In this document: positions 4,684 through 30,317 of the stretch, piece after piece
Layout: each line of letters starts with the position of its first letter
Numbering within the stretch: position 1 is the stretch's first letter
DNA from: Roseobacter litoralis Och 149
GTDB lineage: Bacteria > Pseudomonadota > Alphaproteobacteria > Rhodobacterales > Rhodobacteraceae
NCBI RefSeq assembly: GCF_000154785.2
Contig: NC_015730.1
Coordinates: forward strand, 1,674,001-1,738,000
DNA: 64,000 nucleotides
Direction: 5' to 3'
Position numbers and translations under genes: made by a program
Notes under the pieces: model-generated
Seen by the model: only the letters and a program-made list of their open reading frames with translations
The model's database searches: none
What the model was told of the DNA's origin: nothing

Positions 4684-5244
4684 TTACTCCCCGCGGGACA
4701 AGGCCGCGACACCGGTTCGTGCGACCTCAGCCAAGCCCAAGGGGCGCATCAAGTCAGCGAAAGCATCGATTTTTTCCGGTGCGCCGGTAATTTCGAACAC
4801 GAAGCTTTCGAGGGTGCTGTCGACCACATTGGCGCGAAAAATATCGGCAAGACGCAGTGCCTCGACCCGTTTGTCGCCCTGGCCCACGACCTTGAACATG
4901 GCCAGCTCGCGTTCCACGCTTTTCCCCTCGACCGTCAGGTCATGCACGTCGTGCACCGAGACAATGCGCCCCAGCTGCGCCTTGATCTGCTCGATCACCT
5001 GCGGCGTGCCAGAGGTTACAATCGTAATGCGCGAAAGATGCCCCGTCTCATCCACTTCGGCGACGGTCAGACTGTCGATGTTGTACCCGCGACCTGCAAA
5101 AAGCCCGATGACACGCGCCAGCACACCGGGTTCGTTTTCGACAAGTACCGCGAGCGTGTGCCGTTCGATCACATCCGAGAATGTGGGACGCAGGTTATAG
5201 GCAGAATGGCTGTTTGAGCCTTTTTTGATTTTTAGCGGTGACAT
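4684..5244 (-). CDS. ilvH: Acetolactate synthase small (regulatory) subunit
   Basis: Regulatory subunit of acetohydroxyacid synthase, the first common enzyme of Val, Leu and Ile synthesis; confers valine feedback and activates the large subunit. The ACT domain spans roughly residues 28-105 (HTLAVLVENEPGVLARVIGLFAGRGYN..), followed by the IlvH-type C-terminal domain. The 186 residues include an N-terminal extension of about 25 residues that is common in alphaproteobacteria. It lies about 470 bp downstream of ilvB rather than directly after it; a small lipoprotein gene sits between. Confidence 0.95.
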   Translation of the reverse strand: MSPLKIKKGSNSHSAYNLRPTFSDVIERHTLAVLVENEPGVLARVIGLFAGRGYNIDSLTVAEVDETGHLSRITIVTSGTPQVIEQIKAQLGRIVSVHDVHDLTVEGKSVERELAMFKVVGQGDKRVEALRLADIFRANVVDSTLESFVFEITGAPEKIDAFADLMRPLGLAEVARTGVAALSRGE

Positions 5245-5378: not shown

Positions 5379-5717
5379 TCATTCGTATGTTTCGCTCTTT
5401 TCTGGAACCGCAACCGCGTATAGAATGCACGATTTTTCTGGATTAAAGTACCGACAATTTTCTAACGCGTTCTCTTTGCTTTGTACCAAGTTTTTATCGC
5501 CACGCGACCGACCGCCCCCACGGCCGTCCGATGTTACATACATTGCGCTGTAAACGGGAGCTGTTTGGCGGAACTCCACGTACTTTTCCATGCCGGTTTT
5601 ACTCAGAACGATTTTCGAGACCTGTCGGATTTCTACACCGTTTTGTTGATTGGGGGCAGCGCAACCTACCAAAACCGCAGTGGCCAGAATCGTATAAAGC
5701 GAGCTTTGTTTGATCAC
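5379..5717 (-). CDS. Small predicted lipoprotein between ilvB and ilvH
   Basis: A 112-residue protein with a short basic N-terminus, a hydrophobic stretch and a lipobox (AVLVGC, Cys about residue 19), so it is probably an envelope lipoprotein. Two more cysteines (ENCRYFNPEKSC) may form a disulfide. The GTG start overlaps the ilvB stop (GTGA), so translation is coupled to ilvB. Local base composition is clearly more A/T-rich than ilvB or ilvH, suggesting later arrival. The family is not recognised with certainty; the tail loosely resembles DUF4189-type proteins. Confidence 0.6.
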   Translation of the reverse strand: MIKQSSLYTILATAVLVGCAAPNQQNGVEIRQVSKIVLSKTGMEKYVEFRQTAPVYSAMYVTSDGRGGGRSRGDKNLVQSKENALENCRYFNPEKSCILYAVAVPEKSETYE

Positions 5718-7465
5718 ACCAAAACGCTTCCTTTGGCATCGATCACACCCTGCGTATCCGCTTCCCCCAGAAGCATTTCGTTATGCGCCTTGCCCGACGG
5801 GATCATGGGGAAGCAGTTTTCGTGCTTGGTCACCAGACAGTCAAAGATCACCGGGCCGTCGTAGGTCAGCATCTCCATGATTGCGTCATCCAGATCATCA
5901 GGGTCGGAGCACAGGATGCCCTTGGCCCCGAAAGCTTCGGCCAGTTTCACGAAATCGGGCAGGGCGTCGGACCAGCTGTGTGAATAGCGCTCCCCGTGCA
6001 GCAGTTCCTGCCACTGGCGCACCATACCGAGGCGTTCGTTGTTGAGGATGAACTGTTTGACGGGCAGGCGGTATTGAATGGCCGTGCCCATTTCCTGCAT
6101 GTTCATAAGCCACGACGCTTCACCCGCCACGTTGATCACCAGCGCATCCGGGTGCGCGACCTGCACACCGATCGACGCGGGGAAGCCATAGCCCATCGTG
6201 CCCAGACCACCGGAGGTCATCCAGCGGTTCGGATCTTCAAAGCCCAGATATTGCGCGGCCCACATCTGATGCTGGCCCACTTCGGTGCAGATGTAGCGGT
6301 CATATTTTTTGGTCAGTGCTTCGAGCCGTTCCAACGCGTACTGCGGTTTGATGATCTTGCCTTGTTGGGTGAACTTCAGGCAATCCACTGTCTTCCACTG
6401 CTCGATCTGCGCCCACCATTTGGCGACCGCCTCTGAATTCGTCTTGCGCCCGCGGGATTTCCAGACCTTGAGGATATCCTCAAGCACATGGGCGATATCG
6501 CCGACAATGGGGATGTCGGTCTTGATGACCTTGTTGATGGACGAGGGATCAATATCGATATGTGCCTTGATGGATTTGGGGCTGAACGCATCGAGCCGCC
6601 CCGTGATCCGGTCGTCAAAACGCGCGCCGATGTTGATCATCAGATCGCAATCATGCATCGCCATATTGGCTTCGTACAAACCATGCATCCCCAACATGCC
6701 AATCCATTTTTCACCGGATGCCGGGTAGGACCCCAAGCCCATCAGCGTAGAGGTGATCGGAAAGCCTGTGGCCTTCACCAGTTCGCGCAGCAATTGGCTG
6801 GCTGCAGGGCCTGAGTTGATTACGCCGCCGCCCGTGTAAAAGATCGGTTTCTTGGCCTTTTCAAGCGCAGCCACCAGTTCGGTGATCGCTTCCATGTCGC
6901 CTTTCAGCTTGGGCTGGTAATGCGAGGTGGAGGGTTTGGGCGGCGAATAGGTGCCGGTGGCGAATTGCACGTCCTTGGGGATGTCGACAAGAACGGGGCC
7001 GGGGCGCCCGCTGGTCGCGACATGAAATGCTTCGTGGATGACGCCGGACAGGCGTTCGGTTTCCTTGACCAGCCAGTTGTGCTTGGTGCAGGGGCGCGTG
7101 ATGCCCACGGTGTCCGCTTCTTGGAATGCGTCAGAGCCGATCATGAAGGTCGGCACCTGACCGGTGAGAACCACCAGCGGAATGGAATCCATCAGCGCAT
7201 CCGTCAGGCCGGTGACCGCGTTGGTCGCACCGGGGCCGGAGGTGACAAGAACAACGCCCGGTTTACCAGTGGCGCGCGCATAGCCTTCGGCGGCATGAAC
7301 AGCACCCTGTTCGTGGCGCACCAGAATGTGGCGAATCGCGTTTTGCTGAAAGACCTCGTCATAAATCGGTAGCACTGCGCCGCCCGGATACCCAAATACG
7401 GTATCCACGCCCTGATCAATCAGGGCCTGAACAATCATTTTCGCACCGGACATTTGACGTGTCAT
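5714..7465 (-). CDS. ilvB: Acetolactate synthase large (catalytic) subunit
   Basis: Thiamine-diphosphate enzyme condensing pyruvate with pyruvate or 2-oxobutyrate. At 583 residues it is full length. The catalytic glutamate lies in VRHEQGAVHAAEGYARA; the ThDP/Mg motif GDG...NN is present in altered form as NVAGEASWLMNMQEM with NNERLGMVRQWQ later. The central FAD/NAD-binding-like domain (about 195-330) is intact. It is the first structural gene of the operon, 48 bp after an apparent attenuator terminator and about 100 bp after a leader peptide rich in Leu, Val and Ile codons. Note the Glu-Ala in the usual GDG(S/A) position. Confidence 0.96.
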   Translation of the reverse strand: MTRQMSGAKMIVQALIDQGVDTVFGYPGGAVLPIYDEVFQQNAIRHILVRHEQGAVHAAEGYARATGKPGVVLVTSGPGATNAVTGLTDALMDSIPLVVLTGQVPTFMIGSDAFQEADTVGITRPCTKHNWLVKETERLSGVIHEAFHVATSGRPGPVLVDIPKDVQFATGTYSPPKPSTSHYQPKLKGDMEAITELVAALEKAKKPIFYTGGGVINSGPAASQLLRELVKATGFPITSTLMGLGSYPASGEKWIGMLGMHGLYEANMAMHDCDLMINIGARFDDRITGRLDAFSPKSIKAHIDIDPSSINKVIKTDIPIVGDIAHVLEDILKVWKSRGRKTNSEAVAKWWAQIEQWKTVDCLKFTQQGKIIKPQYALERLEALTKKYDRYICTEVGQHQMWAAQYLGFEDPNRWMTSGGLGTMGYGFPASIGVQVAHPDALVINVAGEASWLMNMQEMGTAIQYRLPVKQFILNNERLGMVRQWQELLHGERYSHSWSDALPDFVKLAEAFGAKGILCSDPDDLDDAIMEMLTYDGPVIFDCLVTKHENCFPMIPSGKAHNEMLLGEADTQGVIDAKGSVLV

Positions 7466-7513: not shown

Positions 7514-7540
7514 AAAAAAGCCCCCGATCTTGGCGGGGGC
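7514..7540 (-). terminator. Rho-independent attenuator terminator of the ilvB leader
   Basis: On the minus strand GCCCCCG..CGGGGGC forms a GC stem followed by TTTTTT, 48 bp before the ilvB start. Upstream, GCGCATGGG (7573-7581) can pair with CCCATGCGC (7539-7547); that pairing reaches the foot of the terminator stem and could act as the competing structure. With the leader peptide this forms a classical ribosome-mediated attenuator. Confidence 0.8.
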
Positions 7541-7565
7541 GCATGGGTCAGACTATGGTCTACCG

Positions 7566-7613
7566 TTACCGGCCCATGCGCGTGTTTCCTACAATGACCA
7601 CTAGGTCGTTCAT
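7566..7613 (-). CDS. ilv operon leader peptide (attenuation), 15 residues
   Basis: A minus-strand mini-gene encodes MNDLVVIVGNTRMGR and ends in TAA. Five consecutive branched-chain residues (L-V-V-I-V) sit at codons 4-8. GGAG lies 8 nt before the ATG. About 25 nt after its stop comes a GC-rich terminator with a U-run and then ilvB. This arrangement matches known Leu/Val/Ile attenuators: ribosome stalling at the branched-chain codons would change downstream RNA pairing and allow read-through into ilvB. Translation itself is inferred. Confidence 0.8.
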   Translation of the reverse strand: MNDLVVIVGNTRMGR

Positions 7614-7861
7614 TCGGTAAGACTCCGTTGTGTTGCGCGAGACATTATGAGCGGCTGACAAGTACGTCAACAGCCGATGCGCAGAAAAATATGTCTCTGA
7701 GTGAGAAAAACCAGTAATATTATTTCGTTCAGATGTCATTTGAGGGAATTAAAGCCAAAATCGTAGCTTTACCGGCTAAGCGTTGTTGATTCTGAAAAGT
7801 CGGCAGGCAAAAAAGCTGGACCGTTGGATGCCCGCTTAGCTCAGCGCCTTCGCATCAGGGG

Positions 7862-8473
7862 TCACCGCCGGGATGTGAGGCTGTGCGACGCAAAGCCGGA
7901 CCAAAACACAAGCCAGGCAGCAAATCCCGAAAGTTTCGAAAAGTCCTCCAGCCAATGTGCGAAGGGGCCATAAATTTTAAATACATCCGTAAATACCGAC
8001 AATCCAAGAAAAAACAGCGCAACCTTTAATCCACGCATGTCATATTGATTGTCGATTTTGCGTAACCTGAACCAGACAGACAAGCCCAACAGACCGTAAA
8101 CGCCGAAGACTGCGACTTCTCCCAGTCGCGAGGCCTTTTCGTGCAACATGAAAACATCGTCGATCACGAGAAGAGCCGATAAGACTGAAACCGCTAGAAG
8201 AACACCGCGGCTTGTGGAGAAAGAGCCGCGCATCACTGCGACCGCAAAGCCGGTAACAGCCGCTGTCGATGTCATCAAGGCCACGCCGACATGGGAAAAG
8301 AAACCGATATAGGATGGGTATTTGTAAATAGCGGCGGGATCACGCACGAGGTCCGCCAGCTCAATACCGCGCAAACCGGTCAAGACGCCGATTATGATCG
8401 CCGCCGCAAACAAGGCCAGAGCTACAATGGTTTCGGGTAATTTGACGAGGGGCCGCGCAGGGGCGTCTGACAT
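7862..8473 (-). CDS. Hypothetical integral membrane protein
   Basis: A 203-residue protein with about five or six hydrophobic segments (for example ETIVALALFAAAIIIGVLTG, GVALMTSTAAVTGFAVAV, GVLLAVSVLSALLVID). The start at ATG 8473 (MSDAPARPL) is preferred because AAGGAA stands about 8 nt upstream; the frame opens earlier at 8527 without one. An HEK motif lies between helices but no family is recognised. It lies downstream of the response regulator on the same strand, separated by about 170 bp. Confidence 0.65.
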   Translation of the reverse strand: MSDAPARPLVKLPETIVALALFAAAIIIGVLTGLRGIELADLVRDPAAIYKYPSYIGFFSHVGVALMTSTAAVTGFAVAVMRGSFSTSRGVLLAVSVLSALLVIDDVFMLHEKASRLGEVAVFGVYGLLGLSVWFRLRKIDNQYDMRGLKVALFFLGLSVFTDVFKIYGPFAHWLEDFSKLSGFAAWLVFWSGFASHSLTSRR

Positions 8474-30231: not shown

Positions 30232-30317
30232 GCCCAAGTGGCGGAATGGTAGACGCAGGGGATTCAAAATCCCCCGACCTAACGGTTGTGCCGGTTCGAG
30301 TCCGGCCTTGGGTACCA
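30232..30317 (+). tRNA. tRNA-Leu (anticodon CAA)
   Basis: An 86-nt class II tRNA with an encoded CCA end. Acceptor arms GCCCAAG and CTTGGGT (a terminal G-U pair), anticodon stem GGGGA..TCCCC around the loop TTCAAAA giving CAA, a long variable arm, and the T arm CCGGTTCGAGTCCGG. Reads UUG codons. Confidence 0.96.

Follow-up and report, generated by a model that had tools for sequence, protein, structure and literature searches.

The DNA upstream of the acetolactate synthase gene ilvB of Roseobacter litoralis Och 149 very probably encodes, on the minus strand, a ribosome-mediated attenuator that responds to the branched-chain amino acids (BCAA), of a kind known for Caulobacter ilvBN. It lies within a 64,000-nucleotide stretch of contig NC_015730.1, referred to here as the window. 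Judged from sequence comparison, it is likely that this leader attenuates ilvBN transcription through ribosome stalling, and a hairpin termed P1 may weaken the foot of the terminator. What appears to be new is that P1 starts inside the leader open reading frame (ORF) and overlaps the terminator foot in a fixed geometry, and that this RNA is shared with a transporter gene and perhaps with an sRNA family of Rfam. A previous sequence-only reading had described a 15-codon mini-gene preceded by GGAG, two complementary segments, a GC hairpin with six T and then ilvB. All of these elements are present; they lie on the minus strand, a point that the reading had left unstated, and are arranged as follows.

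Between ilvB (5714–7465) and a same-strand ORF (7862–8464), minus strand: the ilvB leader region
7642–7670, minus strand: putative promoter, TTGACG (7670–7665), a 17-nt spacer and TAATGT (7647–7642), read from the sequence
7623–7626, minus strand: Shine-Dalgarno-like GGAG, 9 nt 5′ of the leader ATG, from the sequence
7566–7613, minus strand: predicted leader ORF, MNDLVVIVGNTRMGR followed by a stop, 15 codons, ATG at 7613 to TAA at 7566, from sequence and comparison
7590–7604, minus strand: control codons CTA GTG GTC ATT GTA (L V V I V), codons 4–8, from the alignment of 73 leaders
7573–7581, minus strand: P1 5′ arm, GCGCATGGG, in codons 11–14, starting 8 nt past codon 8, from sequence, folding and comparison
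7563–7572, minus strand: inner hairpin CCG-GTAA-CGG, its loop holding the stop codon, from folding and alignment
7539–7547, minus strand: P1 3′ arm, CCCATGCGC, ending in two bases that also open the terminator stem, from sequence, folding and comparison
7514–7540, minus strand: intrinsic terminator GCCCCCG-CCAAGAT-CGGGGGC (7540–7520) with T6 (7519–7514), from sequence and folding
5714–7465, minus strand: ilvB, acetolactate synthase large subunit (NCBIfam PRK09107, 1142 bits, cut-off 974)
4684–5244, minus strand: ilvN/ilvH, acetolactate synthase small subunit (PRK11895, 224 bits, above cut-off)

The leader ORF reads ATG AAC GAC CTA GTG GTC ATT GTA GGA AAC ACG CGC ATG GGC CGG TAA. The inner hairpin around its stop codon has the loop GTAA, which we take to be of the GNRA type; it is paired in 92% of the alignment cells, with two cells changed on both sides. 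The terminator stem consists of seven pairs and begins 25 nt past the leader stop codon, and the ilvB ATG, at 7465, is 48 nt 3′ of the terminator end. The gene ilvN/ilvH is probably in one operon with ilvB; the space between them holds an ORF of 112 aa with a lipoprotein-like start (5379–5717, minus strand), which overlaps the end of ilvB by 4 nt. The same-strand ORF on the other side of the leader (7862–8464) gave no NCBIfam match. TTGACG-17-TAATGT is the probable leader promoter on sequence grounds; the pattern TTGACn-16/18-TAnnnT occurs 5′ of 69 of the 78 leaders tested, the window included, and the element is absent from the list given by a consensus promoter scan of the window. A Shine-Dalgarno-like core, leniently defined, precedes all 78 leaders tested. 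None of the other described Rfam leaders or riboswitches reached the gathering level in the leader, and the scan of the whole window gave only a tRNA; the sole tRNA found in the window is a tRNA-Leu (CAA) at 30232–30317 on the plus strand.

The leader is more than a product of chance above all because it is conserved upstream of ilvB. Within the window, 2000 dinucleotide shuffles of the intergenic region (396 nt) gave an ORF of 8–30 residues with at least five consecutive L/I/V in 15 cases, and the leader RNA folds with a z of −2.5, 3 of 200 shuffles being equally good. The best 80 of the 590 IlvB-encoding loci from the scan were kept for comparison of their leaders, and 77 of these 80 contain a leader ORF (8–40 residues with at least three consecutive L/I/V). 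Conservation across Rhodobacterales ilvB genes, which the sequence-only reading had proposed as a check, is thus borne out, the mini-gene, P1 and the terminator all being kept. The leader is absent from two complete loci (L038 and L063), the contig of a third (L052) is cut off with the second half of the leader still visible, and a fourth (L035) has an in-frame stop ahead of P1.

The aligned leaders (72 of the 80 ilvB loci and the window, n = 73) were used to build a covariance model, R1, which, among 198 genomes of the window's family, matched in 167 (E ≤ 0.01), at least three of these having only a transporter copy (see below). The gene directly 3′ was ilvB in 32 of the 33 family loci fetched via model searches, the 33rd being the transporter copy of the window's own genome. 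When 35 family genomes with a prior weak, double or no match were searched again, 15 of them gave 19 matches, of which 12 are before ilvB, 4 before the transporter and 3 before neither. One genome (G346) has two ilvB genes (L317 and L318), each behind a leader of its own. An ilvB attenuator throughout the class is unsupported: only 10 of 130 ilvB upstream regions (30 loci and 100 fetched, one of just 100 nt, from a search that matched in 204 of 289 genomes) contain at least four BCAA in five codons before a terminator-like site. Four of these ten are from the window's family, its own genome included, two are from family f70, and some of the other four look like chance; a third f70 ilvB leader has three BCAA in five codons.

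The alignment also points to what is sensed. At codons 4–8, Leu, Val and Ile mostly replace one another, so that a run of control codons for the product amino acids is retained in the relatives while the exact LVVIVG is found in 27 of 73. CTA makes up 39 of the 48 Leu codons at codon 4, against 2.6% of the Leu codons in 48 ORFs of the window, and GTA 48 of the 62 Val codons at codon 8, against 6.7%, both backgrounds being the codon usage of one genome. The leaders end in RMGR or HMGR in 68 of 73, and the codons that form P1 are near-invariant also at synonymous sites (CGC in 71, ATG in 73 and GGC in 67 of 73, codons 12–14). The spacings are fixed as well: in all 73 leaders P1 starts 8 nt past codon 8, no gap separates its 3′ arm from that on the 5′ side of the terminator, and the terminator begins 24–29 nt past the stop codon (25 nt in 51). 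The ORF, control codons, P1, terminator, spacings and downstream gene can be read from the aligned sequences themselves. Control of ilvB through the charging of the tRNAs for Leu, Val and Ile, which had been proposed from the window alone, is still the most likely reading.

Compensatory changes, which a covariation search had been suggested to reveal, are present and lie mostly in the terminator. Changes on both sides are seen in 6 of 17 pairs, a number that 0 of 500 shuffles reach; four of the six belong to the terminator, one to the inner hairpin and one, in two Sulfitobacter loci, to P1. P1, being almost invariant, offers only thin covariation, and the covariation score (0.069, with 0.073 when the structure is slid by −1, and 0.087 against 0.073 in a second run) is not decisive by itself. 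In divergent relatives the residues of P1 differ and the helix is still possible. Its letters are changed and its pairing kept in GCGCAGTCGC/GCGACTGCGC (0 of 300 shuffles as good), GCGCATGGC/GCCATGCGC (p 0.017) and GGTGCATGG/CCATGTGCC (p 0.023). The best P1 helix exceeds 99% of shuffles in 3 of 11 divergent ilvB leaders, and in several such relatives it is just 5–6 bp and often matched by shuffles (p 0.18–0.71). These values are from a perfect-helix search with shuffles, which was used instead of RNAduplex, since the latter chose long bulged duplexes with poor shuffle z-scores. A classical 1:2, 2:3 and 3:4 architecture was also considered; the pairing CTAGTGGTC/GACCATAG (8 bp with one bulge, control codons against the loop) is found in the window and missing from the relatives compared by eye, and was taken as chance.

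How such a leader would work can be proposed as follows. With charged Leu-, Val- and Ile-tRNA available, the ribosome would reach the UAA codon and cover the P1 5′ arm, 25 nt short of the terminator, whose seven pairs would then close and end transcription before ilvB. If any one of the three tRNAs were short, the ribosome would stall within CTA-GTG-GTC-ATT-GTA; a stall at the first four of these codons would leave the P1 5′ arm free, P1 would form once its 3′ arm had left RNA polymerase, and, by holding two bases of the terminator foot, would allow the polymerase to continue into ilvB. P1 would thus be the read-through state if the usual logic applies. Translation of the ORF, stalling and, above all, the weakening of termination by P1 through the last foot pairs are the steps that we infer from this arrangement. 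The stop-to-terminator distance in the window, 25 nt, is close to the 28 bp between stop codon and terminator in an E. coli construct for which about 90% termination is given (PMC4824070).

The role of P1 is the most delicate element of this scheme. P1 and the terminator overlap by 1–3 nt in 72 of 73 leaders and by two (7540–7539) in the window, and because only these 1–3 nt are common to both, P1 is no classical mutually exclusive antiterminator. The attenuator had been called complete, and it is so in having its ORF, P1, terminator and ilvB, but not in the textbook sense of two structures that exclude each other. Instead, P1 may plausibly act as a foot-competing antiterminator that takes the last foot pairs, because in the folding calculations it shrinks the gain from closing the last two terminator pairs from a mean of −6.0 to −0.7 kcal/mol (sd ∼1.5, with few outliers to +8.5; −6.6 to −1.2 kcal/mol in the window), and because the closing of the final 2–3 bp is reportedly essential for termination, as stated in PMC4824070. 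At equilibrium the foot is 72% paired with P1 free and 96% paired with a ribosome at the stop codon (means of 73), which makes equilibrium folding a weak switch. Taking 10 nt as the front edge of the ribosome, in keeping with the ∼10 nt downstream of the A site given as protected in the same source (PMC4824070), stalls at codons 4–7 leave the foot 67–72% paired, while a stall at codon 8 covers two P1 foot bases and has no effect (96% paired), despite the strong enrichment of GTA there. Effective switching would have to come from kinetics and from the RNA being held by the polymerase.

It is also conceivable, though rather unlikely, that the leader is a BCAA attenuator in which P1 serves as a pausing or insulating hairpin, for which the trp 1:2 hairpin is a precedent, and that read-through is achieved by another pairing or by ribosome-polymerase coupling. 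The minimum-free-energy fold of the window, in which P1 and the full terminator coexist, and the equilibrium foot pairing of 67–96% in the stalled states are in keeping with such a role, as is the location of P1 5–9 nt from the terminator, with no overlap, in six Rhizobiaceae-type copies and three family f70 ilvB leaders. Foot competition is therefore not general. However, the analysis gave no further conserved pairing able to mask the terminator, CTAGTGGTC/GACCATAG not being kept in the relatives compared by eye, and the overlap is present not only in nearly all of the Rhodobacterales leaders (72 of 73) but also in 17 of 19 transporter leaders outside the family of genome G107, in 7 of the 17 via 5–6 bp helices that shuffles often reach.

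Considerably less probable is a mainly trans-acting role of the terminated leader RNA or its peptide, in the manner of rnTrpL/peTrpL of Sinorhizobium, the position before ilvB then being secondary. Such a role would accord with the classification of a similar Rhizobiaceae RNA (RF02502) as an sRNA by Rfam, and it has a precedent in the trans roles of the S. meliloti trp attenuator RNA and peptide, as described in PMC10117765. It is opposed by the position of ilvB directly after the leader at 32 of the 33 fetched family loci and by a peptide the residues of which vary while BCAA identity and position stay. That the leader is an artefact, a terminator with a chance ORF ahead of it, has a negligible probability: low-scoring model matches of that type exist (L344 and L345; 27–28 bits), but the reading is refuted by conservation, with a leader in 77 of 80 loci, a promoter-like element in 69 of 78, codon enrichment and fixed spacings.

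The proposed attenuator has relatives among known systems. The Caulobacter crescentus ilvBN attenuator is reportedly the subject of a 1994 study by Tarleton, Malakooti and Ely. Attenuation of Caulobacter ilvBN through tandem Ile/Val codons is described in PMC4117421, which cites the 1994 study, and the leader before ilvB in the window therefore belongs to a kind already known; by that description, the likeness extends to an alphaproteobacterial ilvBN, a short leader with tandem BCAA codons and an intrinsic terminator. Like the ilvB, ilvGMEDA and leu attenuators of E. coli and Salmonella (PMC6123439), the ilvB leader of the window has a leader peptide rich in control codons and a terminator before the structural genes. 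A BCAA leader in which antiterminator and terminator overlap, with low-energy transitions, is found in Corynebacterium glutamicum ilvBNC, which differs in belonging to an unrelated lineage and in having a three-hairpin model with an anti-antiterminator, according to PMC11857589. Family f70 ilvB leaders, such as MSKILVPRAPFLGRT, differ from that of the window in having another P1 sequence, 5–8 nt from the terminator; the leader peptides of L137, L134 and L170 are MSLLIVPCAPNEGLA, MSKILVPRAPFLGRT and MRVILIVTEAPLTGRP, respectively. The leader of the window has 15 codons, as opposed to 28–32 in the E. coli and Salmonella attenuators, and carries the P1 5′ arm inside its ORF. In those attenuators antiterminator and terminator share a whole arm, in contrast to the 1–3 nt seen here.

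The leader RNA is not specific to ilvB, because it recurs before a transporter gene elsewhere in this genome. This second copy (G000:C3:1512625-1512738, 74.5 bits; L254:1501-2842, outside the window) encodes the leader peptide MTVKFVVVVSKRCMVR and is followed by a Bcr/CflA family efflux MFS transporter gene (TIGR00710, 218 bits, cut-off 200.9). A scan of the class gave a match in 12 genomes outside the window's family, in six of which (G001, G148, G185, G287, G197 and G034; 31–73 bits) it stands before an orthologous transporter gene, the leaders of G197 and G034 having poor BCAA runs. The other six (G020, G021, G104, G168, G180 and G236; 25–29 bits) were rejected as terminators without a convincing leader, as were the model matches L344-L345; the match at L343 scored 29.8 bits. 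Eight further transporter copies were found in the order of G148, where 9 of 17 genomes matched, and four in the window's family, while the orders of G001 (1 genome), G185 (11) and G287 (15) gave no further copies. Including the six loci of RF02502 (see below), there are 25 transporter loci in 25 genomes, that is, the window's own, 18 others and these six; transporter identity is from family models in two of the 25 and from similarity in the remainder. No leader was found in the 250 nt read by eye upstream of the transporter orthologues of G022, G247, G082, G096 and G211. The control windows of the 25 transporter leaders contain 71 V, 10 I and 3 L among 124 residues; in some of them the BCAA codons number just one or two. 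Overlap of P1 with the terminator is seen at 17 of the 19 loci outside the G107 family and at none of the six inside it.

A connection to the Rfam family RF02502 (Atu_C8, listed as a Rhizobiales sRNA), which in the literature found, as far as available, is named solely as a benchmark family, comes from these six loci. Aligned across the whole leader of the window, RF02502 scored 19 bits (E 0.35), below its gathering cut-off of 50. In 36 genomes of the G107 family it gave six matches above the cut-off (L081 and L100-L104), all just 5′ of the same kind of transporter gene and with a leader ORF such as MQVSVVVGRRMGKAA, and three weaker matches with no leader; model R1 had no match in G107. These six loci resemble the ilvB leader of the window in P1 letters that are identical or nearly so (GCGCAUGGG/CCCAUGCGC), a stop-codon hairpin, a terminator and a V-rich leader ORF, and differ in preceding an MFS gene and in having P1 7–9 nt from the terminator. 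The Atu_C8 'sRNA' thus looks, from its sequence, like a translated attenuator. The link, drawn from shared P1 letters, the frame, the stop-codon hairpin and the same downstream gene, is less certain because RF02502 misses other transporter copies examined. On ten leaders of other lineages (eight transporter copies and two f70 ilvB leaders), it gave one match at E ≤ 0.5, to an f70 ilvB leader (32 bits). In the class scan, 1 of 289 genomes was above the cut-off, followed in score by two ilvB leaders at 32 bits (G252, 32.2 bits, and G189).

A unifying proposal can be offered tentatively, at somewhat less than even confidence: one translated RNA switch, the Atu_C8 'sRNA' included, may serve ilvB in the Rhodobacterales and also, at scattered points across the class, a Bcr/CflA-family transporter, the window's genome having both copies. 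In its overlapping form, P1 would take the last 1–6 bases of the terminator foot when a ribosome stalls just upstream, and the transporter copies would sense either a shortage of valyl-tRNA, if the transporter is linked to BCAA, or slowed ribosomes, if efflux is induced by drugs. No literature was found on the Rhodobacterales leader or on an attenuator before a Bcr/CflA gene, which is weak evidence of absence as few subscription papers were covered. With the ilvB leader, the Rhodobacterales gain an order-wide candidate for BCAA control with a fixed geometry. The second copy suggests that one and the same RNA serves as amino-acid attenuator and as transporter leader, and that what Rfam lists as an 'sRNA' is an attenuator that is translated. 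If this is true, the interpretation of transcriptome reads from the leader RNA would change. Among the transporter leaders from the order of G148 (L320-L327), several have the pattern N-F-x-x-V-G-E-R-C-M-V/A-R with few BCAA codons, which could hint at stalling that depends on the peptide rather than on the codons.
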